Assembly (NCBI RefSeq): GCF_947072685.1
Contig: NZ_CAMTIK010000014.1
Span: 1-49,203 of the forward strand
DNA length: 49,203 nucleotides
From: an uncultured Cetobacterium sp.
GTDB taxonomy: Bacteria; Fusobacteriota; Fusobacteriia; Fusobacteriales; Fusobacteriaceae
Direction of reading: 5' to 3'
Position numbers and translations under genes: made by a program. Of this stretch, positions 33,742 through 41,185 are shown piece after piece (within the stretch, counting starts at the first letter, position 1; each line of letters begins with the position of its first letter). Below the pieces are notes generated by a model. It saw only the letters and a list, made by a program, of their open reading frames with translations. It was not told where the DNA came from and did no database searches.

Positions 33742-34428
33742 CTATTTTTTATTCATATTTTCTAGTTCGATTTTACGTGTATTTTCTCCATTTAAAATAT
33801 ATATTAAATCACTTGCTAGATGTATAATATGATCCGATAATCGCTCAAATTTTTTATCCAAAAGAAGTAAAATAGATCCTCCTAAAACATTGTCAGGAGT
33901 TTCTTTCATTTTAGAAAGAAAATATTCAGTATTTTTATTAACCAGTCCATCTATCTCCTCATCCAAATATAGAATGTTATAGAGAAGAGTGACATCTTCG
34001 TTTAAAAAAGCATCCATATACATTTCAAAAAGAGTTTTAATTTTTCTAGCTACAGGAAAAACTTTTTCGCTCATACCATGAGCGAGATTAGGGGATTTAG
34101 TTTCAATATCTTTTATTAAGGAAAGATTGGCCTTTAAAAGATCACCCATTCTTTCTAAAACACGAACACTATTAATTAGCATAACAAGTTTTCTTAAATT
34201 TTTAGCAGCGGGTTGAAAACGAGCCATTGTTATAATTGAATCCTCTTTTAATTTAACTTCAAAAGCATTTATGAAATCTTCGATCATTTTAGCTTCGCCA
34301 TAAAGGGTGGGATTAAATTTTGAGGTTTGTAGCATTTCTAAATTTACATCAAAATTTCTATTAATATATTTTAATGTTTCTAAATAATGTTCATCTAAAG
34401 CTTTTAAAGATTCATTTAAAGTTTTCAT
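33742..34428 (-). CDS. phoU: Phosphate transport regulator PhoU
   Basis: PhoU links the Pst transporter to the PhoR kinase and represses the Pho response when phosphate is plentiful. The 228-residue product is all-helical with two PhoU repeats (about 10-105 and 120-215), including LRKLVMLINSVRVLERMGDLLKANLSL and KFERLSDHIIHLASDLIYIL, where the conserved ER-GD/ERLSDH motifs bind metal and contact PstB. It is the last gene of the minus-strand operon pstC-pstA-pstB-phoU, behind AAGGAGA, 12 bases after pstB. Confidence 0.92.
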   Translation of the reverse strand: MKTLNESLKALDEHYLETLKYINRNFDVNLEMLQTSKFNPTLYGEAKMIEDFINAFEVKLKEDSIITMARFQPAAKNLRKLVMLINSVRVLERMGDLLKANLSLIKDIETKSPNLAHGMSEKVFPVARKIKTLFEMYMDAFLNEDVTLLYNILYLDEEIDGLVNKNTEYFLSKMKETPDNVLGGSILLLLDKKFERLSDHIIHLASDLIYILNGENTRKIELENMNKK

Positions 34429-34440
34429 AAAGTCTCCTTT

Positions 34441-35202
34441 TTATCCAAATTTTCCAGTTATATAATCTTCTGTCTTTTTTACTCTAGGTGTTGTAAATAT
34501 TTTGGAAGTCTCATCGAACTCTTCTAGTACCCCTTGGTAGAAAAAACCGGTATAATCAGAGATTCTTGAAGCTTGTTGCATATTGTGAGTAACAATGACA
34601 ATACTATAATTTTTAGCTAATTCAACAATAAGTTCCTCGATTTTAGAGGTTGATATTGGATCAAGTGCTGAAGTAGGTTCATCCATAAGTAAAATTTCTG
34701 GATTCACAGAAATAGCACGGGCAATACAAAGTCTTTGTTGTTGCCCACCAGAAAGTCCAAGAGCAGATTGATGTAATTTATCTTTTACCTCATCCCAAAG
34801 AGCAACAGCTTTTAAAGAAGATTCAACAATTGCGTCAAGCTTTTCTTTATTTTTTTCTCCGTGCAATTTTGGAGCATAAACTAAATTTTCATATATTGAT
34901 TTTGGAAAAGGATTAGGTTTTTGGAAAACCATCCCAACTTTTTTTCGAAGCTCAACGATATCGAACTTGCTATCAAAAATATTTTGATCATCTAAAAGAA
35001 TCTCACCTTCATATTTTATTCCATTTATCAAGTCATTCATTCTATTTAATGACCTTAAAAATGTAGATTTACCACATCCAGATGGACCGATAAGAGCAGT
35101 AACTTTATTTTTCATTATATCCATATTAATACTTTTTAAGGCTTTGTAATCACCGTAGTAAAAATCAAAGTCTCTAACAGCAATTCTTACATCCTGTTTC
35201 AT
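34441..35202 (-). CDS. pstB: Phosphate ABC transporter ATPase PstB
   Basis: PstB drives high-affinity phosphate import. The 253-residue protein has Walker [10 protein letters not shown] (39-47), Q-loop [15 protein letters not shown] (the PNPFP sequence is typical of PstB), signature [14 protein letters not shown], Walker [14 protein letters not shown] and switch histidine VTHNMQQA. It lies between pstA and phoU with short gaps and an AGGAGG-type ribosome binding site. Confidence 0.97.
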
Positions 35203-35217
35203 CTATTTTCCTCCTGA

Positions 35218-36057
35218 TTATTTTTCGAATTTATTTCTAATATAGGCTCCAATAAGATTGAAACCAACTGTTATAAACACAAGAACAAATAGAGTGCCAT
35301 GCATATTGGATTCGGGCATATTTGGTACTTGTGTAGAGATTACATATAAATGATAAGGGAGCGCCATAACTTGATCGAAGATCGACTCAGGTAAAAATGG
35401 CAAGTAAAATGCAGCAGCAGTAAATAGTATTGGAGCAGTTTCACCAGCAGCTCTAGAGATGCTAAGGATTACACCTGTCGATATACCAGGTAGAGCAGCA
35501 GGAATAGCAACTTTAGAAATTGTTTCCCATTTAGTAGCTCCTAGAGCTAAAGAAGCCTCTCTTAAACTGTTAGGAATAGCTAAAAGAGCTTCTCTAGTAG
35601 CTGTGATAATAACTGGCAAACACATAATACCTAAAGTGAGAGAACCAGCTAAAATAGATACTCCTAGATTAAAGTATATTACGAAAAGAGCCATTCCAAA
35701 AAGTCCATATATGATACTTGGAATTCCTGCAAGATTAACAATAGTTAGATTTATGATTCTAGTTAAAATATTATCTTGAGCGTATTCAACCAAATAAACT
35801 CCAGTTAAAACTCCGAATGGAACAGAAACAGCAATAGTTCCAAGAGTTAAATAGATTGTACCAACAATAGCAGGAAAAATTCCACCTGCTCTCATCCCTT
35901 TTTTAGGAACCTCTGTTAAAAATTCCCAACTTATTGATGGAATGCCTTTATATAGAATATATCCCAATATAAGAAATATTGGTAAAATAGAGAATAAAGC
36001 GATAGCTTTTATAAAAAATTCGATAGTTTTACCACTTTTTCCTTTTAAAATCTTCAT
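35218..36057 (-). CDS. pstA: Phosphate ABC transporter permease PstA
   Basis: The 279-residue membrane protein has about six membrane segments and the permease (EAA) loop REASLALGATKWETISKVAIPAALPGI, with PstA-type sequences such as GGIFPAIVGTIYL and AAGETAPILFTA. It forms the phosphate channel together with PstC. It starts nine bases after the pstC stop and precedes pstB. Confidence 0.95.
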   Translation of the reverse strand: MKILKGKSGKTIEFFIKAIALFSILPIFLILGYILYKGIPSISWEFLTEVPKKGMRAGGIFPAIVGTIYLTLGTIAVSVPFGVLTGVYLVEYAQDNILTRIINLTIVNLAGIPSIIYGLFGMALFVIYFNLGVSILAGSLTLGIMCLPVIITATREALLAIPNSLREASLALGATKWETISKVAIPAALPGISTGVILSISRAAGETAPILFTAAAFYLPFLPESIFDQVMALPYHLYVISTQVPNMPESNMHGTLFVLVFITVGFNLIGAYIRNKFEK

Positions 36058-36066
36058 TTAACCCTC

Positions 36067-36948
36067 CTATTTTCCCATCAATTTTCTTGATTTACGAATG
36101 TATTTATCAGCAATACTGTTGGTTAAAAAACTTATAGCAAATAGAACTAAACCGATTGCAAATAGAGCGTGATAGTGTTGACTACCTTGAACCACTTCTC
36201 CCATTTCTGCTGCTATTGTAGCAGTGAGCGTTCGAACTGGTGACAGAGGTGAAGAGGCCATAATAGGGGCATTTCCTGTAATCATAAGAACAGCCATGGT
36301 CTCACCAATAATTCTACCAAATCCAAGCATTATTCCTGCAAAAATCCCAGGGAAAGCAGCAGGAAGTAAAACTTTAAACACAGTTTCTAATTTGTTGGCT
36401 CCAAGTGCAAGAGAAGCTTCTCTATAGGAGTTATCTAAGGCTTTTAAAGCATCATCAGACAAACTGACGATAGTAGGGATAGCCATGAAAGAGAGCATAA
36501 CTCCACCAGTTAAAGCGTTTAATCCACTAGTTAGCCCAAAAGTATCTTTAATAAAACCAGAGAGCACATAAAGCCCAAGATATCCTAAAACAACTGATGG
36601 AAGTGCTGACATAGTTTCGATAATAATTTTTAGAGTTTTTCTCGTTTTTTGACTAGCAAATTCAGAGAGATAAATAGTTGTAATTATCCCGATAGGTATA
36701 GAGATACCAAGAGCAACAGCAGTCACCCAAAATGATCCAACCAAAAGAGGTAGGAGCCCATATTTTCCAGATAGAGAGATCCAACTTGTCCCAAAAAAGA
36801 AGTTAGAGATTGGATATTCTTTAAAAAATGCTAAACTATTAATTAAAATAAAAACAAATATAAGAAGAACAATCAGAATGTTAAAGATACCGATAAAGGA
36901 GTTAACTCCTGTCATTGTAGAATCTTTAAACTTTCTTAAATTTAACAT
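36067..36948 (-). CDS. pstC: Phosphate ABC transporter permease PstC
   Basis: The 293-residue protein has six or seven membrane segments and the EAA loop YREASLALGANKLETVFKVLLPAAFPGI, plus IIGETMAVLMITGN, typical of PstC. It is the first gene of the minus-strand pst operon, behind GGAGG, and its upstream region holds a Pho-box array on the same strand. The binding protein gene pstS is divergent rather than in front of pstC. Confidence 0.95.
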   Translation of the reverse strand: MLNLRKFKDSTMTGVNSFIGIFNILIVLLIFVFILINSLAFFKEYPISNFFFGTSWISLSGKYGLLPLLVGSFWVTAVALGISIPIGIITTIYLSEFASQKTRKTLKIIIETMSALPSVVLGYLGLYVLSGFIKDTFGLTSGLNALTGGVMLSFMAIPTIVSLSDDALKALDNSYREASLALGANKLETVFKVLLPAAFPGIFAGIMLGFGRIIGETMAVLMITGNAPIMASSPLSPVRTLTATIAAEMGEVVQGSQHYHALFAIGLVLFAISFLTNSIADKYIRKSRKLMGK

Positions 36949-37008: not shown

Positions 37009-37062
37009 ATATTATAATTTTTTTGTTAAAAGAAAATTAATATTAGGTAAAAATTGTGTAAA
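37009..37062 (-). promoter_or_regulatory. Pho-box array and promoter for pstC (minus strand)
   Basis: Read on the minus strand, hexamers TTTACA (37062-37057), TTTACC (37051-37046), TTAATT (37040-37035) and TTAACA (37029-37024) recur at exactly 11-base intervals. TTAACA-like hexamers at 11-base period are the binding pattern of PhoB/PhoP response regulators. The -10 follows as TATAAT (37016-37011), overlapping TAATAT (37014-37009). No separate -35 is needed at such activated promoters. Confidence 0.7.
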
Positions 37063-37068
37063 ATCTTT

Positions 37069-37122
37069 TTTACTGTTTGTTTACATTAGATTTAAACTAT
37101 GTTTACATTGATGGGCTATACT
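37069..37122 (+). promoter_or_regulatory. Pho-box array and promoter for pstS (plus strand)
   Basis: Hexamers TTTACT (37069-37074), TTTACA (37080-37085), TTTAAA (37091-37096) and TTTACA (37102-37107) recur at exactly 11-base intervals, followed after nine bases by -10 TATACT (37117-37122). This is the layout of a Pho box replacing the -35. It is the mirror image of the array serving pstC, the two being separated by six bases. Confidence 0.8.
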
Positions 37123-37161
37123 TAGTTCAAAGATAAAATTAAAAATTAGGAGGATTAAAAA

Positions 37162-37992
37162 ATGAAGAGATTTTTTATGATTGGATTAGTTGGTATTATG
37201 GGATTGAATTCAACACTGGCAACAGCTTCTAAAATAGTTCAGGTGAAAGGATCAGATACAATAGTGAATGTTTCCCAATATATAGCAGAAGAATATATGG
37301 GGAAAAATAAAGATGCTAGGATAGCTGTTACAGGTGGCGGTTCAGGTGTTGGGATATCATCTCTTATAAATGGGACAGCAGATATTGGTATGGCCTCAAG
37401 AAGTATTAAACCAAAGGAGTTGGAAGCAGCTAAAGAAAGAGGAGAGGTAATAAAAGAAGTCGTTTTGGGATATGACGGAATAACAGCAATAGTAAATGAA
37501 AAAAATGGGATTAAAAATTTAACACATCAAGATTTGGCTAAAATTTATAGAGGAGAGATAACAAATTGGAAACAGTTAGGCGGAGATGATGCCCCAATAG
37601 TTGTTCTTTCAAGAGATTCTTCATCTGGAACTCATGAGTTTTTTAAAGAACATATAATAAGAGAAGAAAATAAAAATAAAGATGCTGAGTATGGAGAAAA
37701 AACATTGTATATGCCATCAAACGAGGCGATAAAGCAAGAGGTTAAGAGTAACAAATATGCAATAGGATATATTGGAATGGGTTATGTAGATAAGACAGTA
37801 AAAAGTTTAAATATAGATTCAATAGAACCTACAGTAGAAAACGTGGCTAGTAAAAAATACCCAATAGCAAGAGAAGTTTTCTGGTATGTGAAAGATACAG
37901 ATAACAAAGAAGTGGATAGTTTAGTAGATTTTGCATTGTCAAAAGATGGTCAGAAAATAGTTGCTGATGAAGGATTTGTTCCAGTAAAATAG
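37162..37992 (+). CDS. pstS: Phosphate-binding protein PstS
   Basis: PstS captures phosphate outside the inner membrane for the PstCAB transporter. The 276-residue protein has a signal peptide (about 1-22, MKRFFMIGLVGIMGLNSTLA) without a lipobox cysteine, so it is likely a free periplasmic protein. Phosphate-contacting segments are visible: VKGSDTIVNV near the mature start, GGGSGVGISSLINGTADIGMASR, and LSRDSSSGTHEFF. Length is typical of the short bacterial form. AGGAGG precedes ATG 37162, and a four-repeat Pho-box promoter lies upstream. Confidence 0.95.
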   Translation: MKRFFMIGLVGIMGLNSTLATASKIVQVKGSDTIVNVSQYIAEEYMGKNKDARIAVTGGGSGVGISSLINGTADIGMASRSIKPKELEAAKERGEVIKEVVLGYDGITAIVNEKNGIKNLTHQDLAKIYRGEITNWKQLGGDDAPIVVLSRDSSSGTHEFFKEHIIREENKNKDAEYGEKTLYMPSNEAIKQEVKSNKYAIGYIGMGYVDKTVKSLNIDSIEPTVENVASKKYPIAREVFWYVKDTDNKEVDSLVDFALSKDGQKIVADEGFVPVK

Positions 37993-38000
37993 TAAGATAT

Positions 38001-38030
38001 GGTGTCTTTTGTATATGAAGACACCTTTTT
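38001..38030 (+). terminator. Rho-independent terminator after pstS
   Basis: Eight-base arms GGTGTCTT (38001-38008) and AAGACACC (38018-38025), then TTTTT. It separates pstS from the regulator genes. Confidence 0.88.
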
Positions 38031-38046
38031 CTATTTATGGTATAAT
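38018..38046 (+). promoter_or_regulatory. Promoter of the phoB-phoR pair
   Basis: Extended -10 TGGTATAAT (38038-38046); the -35 position (AAGACA, 17-base spacing) lies in the terminator arm. No TTTACA repeats are present, so the regulators seem to have a Pho-independent basal promoter. Confidence 0.65.
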
Positions 38047-38081: not shown

Positions 38082-38759
38082 ATGAAGGTATTAGTAGTAG
38101 AGGATGATTTAGAGATACAGGCGTTGATAAACTATTATTTTATAAAGGAAGGATATGAAGTGACTGTAGCTTCAGATGGTTTAGAAGGGCTAAAGTATTT
38201 GAAAAAAGAAAAACACGAATTAATAATTTTAGATTTGATGCTACCTAATTTAGATGGAATAAATTTTACAAAGATAGTTAAAGAGATGGATGAAGAGTAT
38301 GGGACACCTTATATAATAATGTTAACAGCAAAAACAGAGGTTGAAGATGTCTTGAAAGGATTAGAGATAGGAGCGGATGATTATATAAAAAAACCTTTTG
38401 ATCCAAGAGAGTTATTGCTGAGGGGGAAAAAACTTTTAAACAAACAAGAAAAAAATAAAAAAATAAGGAATAAATTTTTAACCCTAGAAATTAACGAGGA
38501 TAAGCATTTAGTAACCAATGATGGGGTTGAAGTGGAGCTGTCAAAAAAAGAGTATGACTTATTATTACTTTTAATTAAAAATAGAGGGATTGTTGTAAGT
38601 CGTGAAAAAATTTTGGATAAGGTTTGGGGAAGTAATTACTACACAGGAGATAGGACTGTAGATGTATATATATCTAAATTAAGAGAAAAAATGCCGATTT
38701 TAATAGAGTGTATAAAAACAGTGAAAGGAGTTGGATACAGATTAGAAGAAAAGAGATAA
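38082..38759 (+). CDS. phoB: PhoB-like response regulator (OmpR family)
   Basis: The 225-residue protein has a receiver domain (1-118) with the acidic pocket EDD (7-9), phosphoacceptor Asp 51 (LIILDLMLPNLDG), Thr 82 and Lys 103-104, and a C-terminal winged-helix DNA-binding domain (about 130-225) with LSKKEYDLLLLLIKNRGIVVSREKIL and RTVDVYISKLREK. Its place between pstS and a matching kinase, near Pho boxes with the right period, supports the PhoB/PhoP role: binding 11-bp repeats and activating both pst units. The kinase gene overlaps its 3-prime end. Confidence 0.88.
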   Translation: MKVLVVEDDLEIQALINYYFIKEGYEVTVASDGLEGLKYLKKEKHELIILDLMLPNLDGINFTKIVKEMDEEYGTPYIIMLTAKTEVEDVLKGLEIGADDYIKKPFDPRELLLRGKKLLNKQEKNKKIRNKFLTLEINEDKHLVTNDGVEVELSKKEYDLLLLLIKNRGIVVSREKILDKVWGSNYYTGDRTVDVYISKLREKMPILIECIKTVKGVGYRLEEKR

Positions 38760-40432
38760 TTGCACTTTTATTTATTATTATGATAGAACTTTTTTATATA
38801 GTGGCAAGTGTTTTATTTTTATCCTCACTTTATAAAGAGGGAGTGAGAAATAGTTTAAAAGAAAATGTTTTTATTATATCAAATTTAATAAAAGAGTATG
38901 ACAAAGAAAAATACCAACAAATTTTTAAAGATTCAGATGTGCGATTCAATATAATAGGAACTGATGGAGTTGTTATTTATGATTCTAAAAAATATAATGA
39001 AGAGTATGAATTAGAAAATCATAGTACTAGAAAAGAAGTTGTTGCTGTAAAAAATAATGAGATAGGATTCGATATAAGAAAAAGCTCAATATCAACTCAA
39101 ACAATGGCGTATTATGCTGAAAAAAGAGTGAACAAGGAGGGAGAGAATGTAATTATAAGAGTTTCTAAAAACTATGGAGAAACCCAAAAAACTCTAAAGA
39201 TTATATTGTTAACGGAGCTGTTGTTTTTTACACTCTTAAATGTGGTGATACATTCTTTTTATAAAAATTATTTGAAAAGAGATATGTATCGAAAAATAGA
39301 GATAATTGAAAGGTATTTAAAATATGAAGGAAAAGGTGAAAATTTATATTTTGAAAGGGACACGTGGATCTTAAATCTTTGGGATGTAGTGCAAAAATGG
39401 CAACAACAAAACCTTGAGAATATAGTTGATCTGAATAGAGAAAAGCGTATTTTACATCAGATAATAAGCTCTATTGATGCTTCGATATGTTTATTTGATG
39501 AAAAGTTAAAATTGATTATTAAAAATAGTCGTTTCAATTATCTCTACGAAAAAGATAGAGTGGATTATTTAAATCTAATAAAAGATATAGAAATAATAGA
39601 TGTTATGAAAAAAGCAATAAATCAAAAACAAAATCAAAAATTAGAAGTTTATATACCGAGATTAAAAAGATATTTTAGTGTAAATGTAAAATTTTTAGAC
39701 CAAGATCAGAGATATCTCTTATCTGTAAAAGATATAACTCAAACAAAAGGGATGATAGAGGTTCAAAAAACATTTATAAGTAATGTAAGTCACGAACTGA
39801 AAACTCCATTAACTAATATAAAAGGATATGTAATTGCTTTAGAAGATGCTCCAGAACCTTTGAAAATTCAATTTATTAAAACTATAAAAAATAATATCGA
39901 TAAATTAGAAAATATAATAGTGGATTTTTTAAATATAACAAAAATAGAAGGCTCTAAAATTGTGAATATACAAAAGATACCAGTAGAAAAATTGAAAATA
40001 GAATTAAATTTATCTTTAAGTGAAAGAATAAAAACGAGTGGAGCAGTAATAAAATATAATTTAAATCTTTTAAATAAACAGGAAGAATTGAAAATAGATT
40101 TTGAAAAAATATTGACAATAATAAAAAATTTAGTAGAAAATGCGATAATCTATAAAGGGGATAAAACTCCAGAAATAGAAATTTCTATAATTGAGACTAA
40201 AAGTAGATATAAAATAGGTGTAAAAGACAATGGTATTGGTATGGCCCCAGATGATATGGAAAAAGTATTTGAGAGATTTTATAGAGTTGATAAAGCTAGA
40301 ACAAGTAATAAAGCTGGAACAGGATTGGGTCTTTCGATAGTTAAAGAGTTGGTGGAGATCTGTGGTGGGAAAATAGATATTATATCAAAAGAGGGCAAAG
40401 GAAGTATCTTTATATTTACTATTTTGAAATAA
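38708..40432 (+). CDS. phoR: PhoR-like membrane sensor histidine kinase
   Basis: The protein (up to 574 residues) has a membrane segment (about 17-41), an extracytoplasmic part (about 42-162), a second membrane segment (163-184), a PAS-like region (about 250-345), the HisKA site NVSHELKTPLTNIKG (His 362) and the ATPase domain with N box NLVENAIIY, G1 DNGIGM, F box FERFYR and G2 GTGLGLSIV. The extracytoplasmic part is longer than in E. coli PhoR and like Gram-positive PhoR. The start is uncertain: GTG 38708 overlaps phoB by 52 bases with a weak binding site; ATG 38780 would cut into the first membrane segment. Confidence 0.85.
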   Translation: MYKNSERSWIQIRRKEIIALLFIIMIELFYIVASVLFLSSLYKEGVRNSLKENVFIISNLIKEYDKEKYQQIFKDSDVRFNIIGTDGVVIYDSKKYNEEYELENHSTRKEVVAVKNNEIGFDIRKSSISTQTMAYYAEKRVNKEGENVIIRVSKNYGETQKTLKIILLTELLFFTLLNVVIHSFYKNYLKRDMYRKIEIIERYLKYEGKGENLYFERDTWILNLWDVVQKWQQQNLENIVDLNREKRILHQIISSIDASICLFDEKLKLIIKNSRFNYLYEKDRVDYLNLIKDIEIIDVMKKAINQKQNQKLEVYIPRLKRYFSVNVKFLDQDQRYLLSVKDITQTKGMIEVQKTFISNVSHELKTPLTNIKGYVIALEDAPEPLKIQFIKTIKNNIDKLENIIVDFLNITKIEGSKIVNIQKIPVEKLKIELNLSLSERIKTSGAVIKYNLNLLNKQEELKIDFEKILTIIKNLVENAIIYKGDKTPEIEISIIETKSRYKIGVKDNGIGMAPDDMEKVFERFYRVDKARTSNKAGTGLGLSIVKELVEICGGKIDIISKEGKGSIFIFTILK

Positions 40433-40498: not shown

Positions 40499-41185
40499 AT
40501 GGCTAAGATAAAAAGCGTAGTAGTAGCACATGCTGCACAAATGAGTCAACAAATAGGAGGAGCTGTAGATATTTTTGGTTCCTTTGATAACCTTATTCAA
40601 CCAATATTTCCTCATCCAATGATGAGATTATCAATAGTTTTGACTTTTGAAGAGGTAATGAGACCTACAGTTTTTGAAGTGAGATTAAATGGTCCAGATG
40701 ATGATTTGATATCAAGAGGAGAGTTGACTCCTATGATAGACCCATTAGGGGTTGGAAAGAAAATTATAGATATAGATAAGTTCCTTGTAAAAAATAGAGG
40801 AAGATATACAATAGATATTTTTGAAAAAGATGGAGATGAATTAAAATTTATAAAAACAGAGACTCTTTTTATAGCTGAATATCCTCCACAAAGAAGATTT
40901 ACAGAGGAACAAATAGAAGAAATTTCAAAAAATGATGAACTTATAAGAAGTGTAAAAACAGAGTTTAAACCATTTGGATTTGAAAATCCTATAAAGCTTC
41001 AGCATAATCTATTAAAAGGTTCTGTAATAGAGGAAGGGTACCTATCTATTCCGGAAAGTGACAGGCTAGAAATAGAGGGGCAAGAGATAGAATTAACAGG
41101 TGTTAGAAGACAGATAGAGTGGATGTTTGGAAACCCTATTCCTAAAGAAGAAGAGAAAAAAGAGGAAGAAAAAATAGAAGAATAA
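40499..41185 (+). CDS. Conserved hypothetical protein
   Basis: The 228-residue protein is not recognised with confidence. It has no signal peptide or membrane segment. The N-terminal half begins IKSVVVAHAAQMSQQIGGAVDIFGSFDNLIQPIFPHPMM-like sequence (key phrases VVVAHAAQ, VDIFGSFDN, RLSIVLTF) and reads as a beta-sandwich; this recalls DUF6941-type proteins of unknown function. The C-terminal part is charged and ends in a lysine/glutamate-only tail (about 212-228). The gene is monocistronic with its own promoter, AAGGGGG binding site and a strong terminator. Confidence 0.6.
   Translation: MAKIKSVVVAHAAQMSQQIGGAVDIFGSFDNLIQPIFPHPMMRLSIVLTFEEVMRPTVFEVRLNGPDDDLISRGELTPMIDPLGVGKKIIDIDKFLVKNRGRYTIDIFEKDGDELKFIKTETLFIAEYPPQRRFTEEQIEEISKNDELIRSVKTEFKPFGFENPIKLQHNLLKGSVIEEGYLSIPESDRLEIEGQEIELTGVRRQIEWMFGNPIPKEEEKKEEEKIEE

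Follow-up and report, generated by a model that had tools for sequence, protein, structure and literature searches.

Genes of the split pst locus

In a 49,203-nucleotide stretch from an uncultured Cetobacterium sp. (contig NZ_CAMTIK010000014.1; referred to here as the window), the pst genes are split into two halves that diverge from the region between pstC and pstS. The genes of the locus, with their scores against NCBIfam and Pfam models, are as follows.

33742..34428, minus strand: phoU-like gene, last of the minus-strand pst run (TIGR02135, 100.9 bits, below cut-off; PF01895)
34441..35202, minus strand: pstB (TIGR00972, 416.2 bits, passes cut-off)
35218..36057, minus strand: pstA (TIGR00974, 297.5 bits, passes cut-off)
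36067..36948, minus strand: pstC (TIGR02138, 269.7 bits, passes cut-off)
37162..37992, plus strand: pstS, phosphate-binding protein (TIGR02136, 253.6 bits, passes cut-off)
38001..38025, plus strand: hairpin resembling an intrinsic terminator, located between pstS and the regulator gene
38018-38046, plus strand: TG-extended promoter-like site directly after the hairpin
38082..38759, plus strand: response regulator of the OmpR/PhoB family, which presumably reads the arrays described below (PF00072, PF00486)
38708..40432, plus strand: PhoR/PnpS-like sensor histidine kinase, overlapping the regulator gene; start codon uncertain

The names pstC and pstS, which an initial annotation had given to the flanking genes, thus stand, with both proteins passing their NCBIfam cut-offs. 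The same annotation had pointed to a PhoB-like gene nearby. This is the regulator gene, which is followed by the kinase gene 3' of pstS; its best NCBIfam model is indeed PhoB (TIGR02154), at 188.8 bits and below the cut-off of 296.2, and we assign the predicted protein to the OmpR/PhoB family and claim no membership in the PhoB equivalog. The kinase scored 237.1 bits against PnpS (cut-off, 400) and 205.5 bits against PhoR (cut-off, 334.2), both below the cut-off. A conserved gene for a 228-residue protein that matched no NCBIfam model lies 3' of the kinase gene (window positions 40499-41185) and is found beside the kinase gene in most Cetobacterium relatives.

Two back-to-back arrays between pstC and pstS

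The pstC-pstS intergenic region had been described as carrying four hexamers per strand at an 11-bp period, in two arrays placed back to back. On rereading, all eight hexamers were exact to the base.

37009..37014, minus strand: pstC-side -10, TAATAT, 9 nt past the fourth unit
37024..37062, minus strand: pstC-side array, TTTACA-N5-TTTACC-N5-TTAATT-N5-TTAACA (direct reading; exact genome match; relatives)
37063..37068, no strand: 6-bp centre separating the two first hexamers (direct reading)
37069..37107, plus strand: pstS-side array, TTTACT-N5-TTTACA-N5-TTTAAA-N5-TTTACA (direct reading; exact genome match; kept in relatives)
37117..37122, plus strand: pstS-side -10, TATACT, 9 nt past the fourth unit

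The plus-strand hexamers start at 37069 (TTTACT), 37080 (TTTACA), 37091 (TTTAAA), and 37102 (TTTACA), and those of the minus strand occupy 37062-37057 (TTTACA), 37051-37046 (TTTACC), 37040-37035 (TTAATT), and 37029-37024 (TTAACA). The six bases reported between the arrays and both -10 elements were found as described; an alternative minus-strand -10, TATAAT (37016-37011), lies 7 nt from the fourth unit.

Repeats of this kind could arise by chance in a spacer so rich in A+T, since the intergenic regions are ~78% A+T and TTTA-like words are therefore common. We scored arrays by their matches to (TTWACA)x4 at period 11 (maximum, 24) and compared the window arrays, which score 22/24 and 21/24, with dinucleotide shuffles of the intergenic region. 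These scores were reached by 0 and 1 of 20,000 shuffles, respectively, and no shuffle (0/20,000) reproduced both arrays. We also searched the 2.15-Mb genome for hexamers at an 11-bp period, as the initial annotation had proposed, using the strict pattern TTNACN6TTNACN6TNNAN7TTNACA and its reversal as a control. The pattern matched exactly twice, at the two pst arrays of the window and nowhere else, and the control had 0 matches. When up to two mismatches were allowed, the same genome yielded 34 matches versus 40 for the control, indicating that most weak matches are noise; they were left out of all counts, except for those upstream of the two alkaline phosphatase genes that this genome has. 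Each of these genes is preceded by a degenerate array, with the start codon 51 bp past the array in both cases.

Contig C2, 26010-27299: alkaline phosphatase gene; array with one mismatch, -10 at N9
Contig C25, 9238-10530: alkaline phosphatase gene; array with two mismatches, no -10 at N9

Judged by sequence, the former is a good candidate for a Pho array and the latter a weak one; the C25 array appears decayed.

Conservation and consensus in Fusobacteriota

PstS was present in 64 of 98 Fusobacteriota genomes. The divergent pst layout is kept in many Fusobacteriaceae, and the genomes labeled g8, g9, g14, and g15, as well as one g10 locus, have pstS, pstC, pstA, pstB, and phoU all in the same orientation. 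We compiled 50 pst promoter regions, 33 of which were scored divergent, yielding 83 arrays with the consensus TTTACA-N5-TTTACA-N5-TTAATA-N5-TTWACA-N9-TANNNT. The repeats are conserved and their internal spacing is fixed across these regions. A number of features stand out. (i) The fifth base is a C in 81/83 (unit 1), 83/83 (unit 2), and 82/83 (unit 4) arrays, and in only 4/83 arrays in unit 3. The motif proposed initially, TTTACA-N5 repeated, thus needs a correction at unit 3, which is consistently C-less. (ii) TANNNT is found at N9 in all 83 arrays; the handmade seed matrix contained hexamers only, so that the -10 was initially no part of it, although later rounds refined this element. (iii) Promoters with pstS and pstC on the same strand have one array each, on the coding strand, the strand to which the array scan of regions not scored divergent was confined; with the strict pattern applied to both strands, the g8, g9, and g10 loci listed had no partner array on the opposite strand. 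A provisional score of single was given to the loci of G053, G005, and G035 and to three g10 loci, for which no pstC was seen upstream in the stretch examined.

Array-like sequences were also seen upstream of the PstS-like genes in L052 and L054 (G046) and L041 (G035), which have no pstC-pstA-pstB neighbor in the stretch examined.

That the C of units 1, 2, and 4 hardly varies among the 83 arrays again argues against chance, as do the near-zero control matches over the 98 genomes. Conservation, shuffles, and controls together rule out a chance origin, to which we assign a negligible probability. The comparison instead supports well the reading of the two window arrays as a conserved, divergent pair of predicted PhoP-type promoters.

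Spacing and the 6-bp centre

The two tetramers might alternatively form a single cooperative eight-unit complex across a centre of fixed length, in which case binding on one side would help or require binding on the other. The centre measures 6 bp in 31 of the 33 divergent loci, even though the regions as a whole are anywhere between 162 and 271 bp long, a constancy that was striking at first. We compared indels on a tree of the PstC, PstS, and regulator proteins, in which flank lengths vary often. The length of the centre changed twice, versus 3.7 changes expected from flank rates (P = 0.28), and its apparent constraint is hence indistinguishable from the flank indel rates. The 5-bp spacers within the arrays changed zero times versus about 18.6 changes expected from flank indel rates, a count that is partly built in because the array finder imposes the 11-bp spacing. 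Since non-split operons are served by single arrays as well, we consider a joint eight-unit complex unlikely. The initial proposal of a single platform for the split pst locus is consequently retained in part: the comparison supports one regulator for both halves, whereas the centre is no more conserved than the flanks.

Predicted regulon and link to the regulator

In the survey of 98 genomes, nearly all of those that have the regulator contained one to eight matches to the strict pattern, and the controls mostly gave 0. From the matches outside the main pst promoters we checked 43 sites, selected to be spread over the genomes and not at random. All 43 were intergenic and outside long reading frames. 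TANNNT was present at N9 in 38 of them, although the pattern did not demand a -10, and unit 3 had a C at 2 of 40 sites. The genes behind these arrays belong to 19 families. They include (i) alkaline phosphatase, a CehA/McbA metallohydrolase, an Na/Pi symporter, PhnG, and Ppx (exopolyphosphatase); (ii) PhnD-like, 2-aminoethylphosphonate-binding, PstS-like, and PstC-like proteins; (iii) GDPD, a UgpA-like permease, inorganic pyrophosphatase, and PHP and HAD phosphatases; and (iv) a LacI regulator, an SBP_bac_5 protein, and a CbiR-like protein, which have no evident phosphorus link. The arrays are thus found upstream of genes expected under phosphate starvation, namely, at the 50 pst promoters and at other phosphorus genes, among them those for phosphonate and glycerol-phosphate transporters, and the consensus is precise enough for genome-by-genome prediction of regulon members. 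The CehA/McbA-family metallohydrolase, a candidate phosphorus-scavenging enzyme, lies behind an array in four genomes (L136:8729-10075, which had no Pfam match, and relatives in L137, L141, and L145).

Of the 57 genomes that encode a close relative of the window regulator, 56 had arrays, compared to 4 of the 41 without one (Fisher P = 2.7e-21, ignoring phylogeny; Leptotrichiaceae account for most negatives). Among the regulator sequences retrieved, the segment GDRTVDVYISKLR(E/D)K of the recognition helix is almost invariant. The proposal that a PhoB-like regulator reads a Pho-type box at both pst halves is supported by these comparisons, since the spacing is fixed, each non-split promoter has one array, the downstream genes are mostly phosphorus genes, and array and regulator co-occur.

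The main rival reader is another OmpR-family regulator, such as one like WalR/YycF. Its motif, TGT(A/T)A(A/T/C)-N5-TGT(A/T)A(A/T/C), is this hexamer read on the opposite strand and repeated with an identical period, and predicted YycF sites include pstS and phnD (PMC5405149); the window regulator itself also scores 167 bits against YycF. The WalR/YycF box, however, has two units and serves cell wall genes among others, whereas the fusobacterial promoter has a tetramer with a fixed -10 in front of genes devoted mostly to phosphorus scavenging. Furthermore, no array was found in genomes that lack the window regulator but had other candidate response regulators in a first survey, for example, in the thirteen g21 genomes. 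An array is present in only 4 of the 41 genomes without the pst-linked regulator, which counts against a WalR-like reader. We therefore regard a WalR/YycF-like reader as improbable and retain the regulator of the locus as the presumed one.

Comparison with known Pho boxes

The PhoP box of Bacillus subtilis is given as TT(A/T/C)ACA-N4-6-TT(A/T/C)ACA in a passage of PMC12404567 that cites Liu and Hulett (1998). As far as that passage goes, the fusobacterial arrays share its hexamer, its 11-bp period, and its association with phosphate genes; units 1, 2, and 4 fit TT(A/T/C)ACA as 11-nt direct repeats. We scanned the Fusobacteriota consensus over 84,980 species. Among the matches listed, Bacillaceae predominated, and at the majority of the 80 loci examined the next gene was PstS-like. 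Bacillaceae pstS promoters have the same N9 and -10 as the fusobacterial arrays. Their unit 3 is usually C-less as well: with unit 3 unconstrained, a C was present in 6/31 Bacillota sites (31 of the 32 listed, from twelve genomes), a tally that is biased because these genomes were reached through the consensus scan, which required a C-less unit 3. Compared with response regulators from the Bacillota genomes searched, among which PhoP was not distinguished, the window regulator shows only ~37-47% identity. What differs from B. subtilis is that two back-to-back tetramers here serve a split pst locus.

The pho box read by PhoB in Escherichia coli consists of two 11-nt direct repeats with the core CTGTCAT (PMC4415409). 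It likewise combines head-to-tail 11-nt repeats, an OmpR/PhoB-family regulator, and pst genes but differs in its core (CTGTCAT versus TTTACA) and in having a two-unit box instead of four units per promoter. By sequence comparison, the promoter design is common to Fusobacteriota and Bacillaceae rather than to E. coli.

According to the initial annotation, no Pho motif was known to be described for this phylum. No published Pho box of Fusobacterium or Fusobacteriota was found in the openly licensed literature, though one may have been described outside it; the search of that literature also yielded no expression data for the phylum. In kind, the motif is already known: it corresponds to the PhoP box of B. 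subtilis and picks up pstS promoters of Bacillaceae. As far as the literature searched shows, the divergent pair of predicted PhoP-type promoters is thus new to Fusobacteriota but not in kind, and it gives this phylum a Pho box that is specific and can be tested, together with a predicted phosphate starvation regulon.

Tentatively, and with somewhat less than even odds, the C-less unit 3 may be conserved because it has a function in the promoters of both Fusobacteriota and Bacillaceae. Because unit 3 overlaps the position expected for a -35, contacts of the third regulator subunit with DNA may be weak there while sigma region 4 occupies the site, which would imply a common four-subunit activation geometry. 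If true, this geometry would be distinct from that of the two-unit E. coli box.

Proposed mechanism

In our view, the intergenic region very probably holds two divergent Pho promoters that depend on an activator, the regulator of the locus, under low phosphate. What the sequences and their comparison show directly is the arrays with their spacing, strand logic, and conservation, together with their links to phosphorus genes and the regulator; from these we infer binding, phosphorylation, the direction of control, start sites, and read-through. Under low phosphate, the kinase (38708-40432) would phosphorylate the PhoB/PhoP-type regulator (38082-38759), which would bind head to tail on each tetrameric array, covering positions of about -60 to -22 relative to the predicted start, a placement that presumes a start 7 nt past the -10 (near 37129 on the plus strand and 37002 on the minus strand). 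The PhoP core boxes of B. subtilis lie at about -60 to -20. The bound regulator would then recruit RNA polymerase to a -10 that is not accompanied by a good -35. One array would drive pstC-pstA-pstB-phoU, and the other would drive pstS, plus the regulator and kinase genes by read-through of an attenuating terminator. This read-through from pstS to the regulator gene is likewise predicted, given the hairpin and the promoter-like site between the two genes; a second array between them was looked for in relatives, and none was found. The hairpin arrangement suggests that pstS would be made in excess of the regulator, and comparable hairpins are present in several Cetobacterium relatives.
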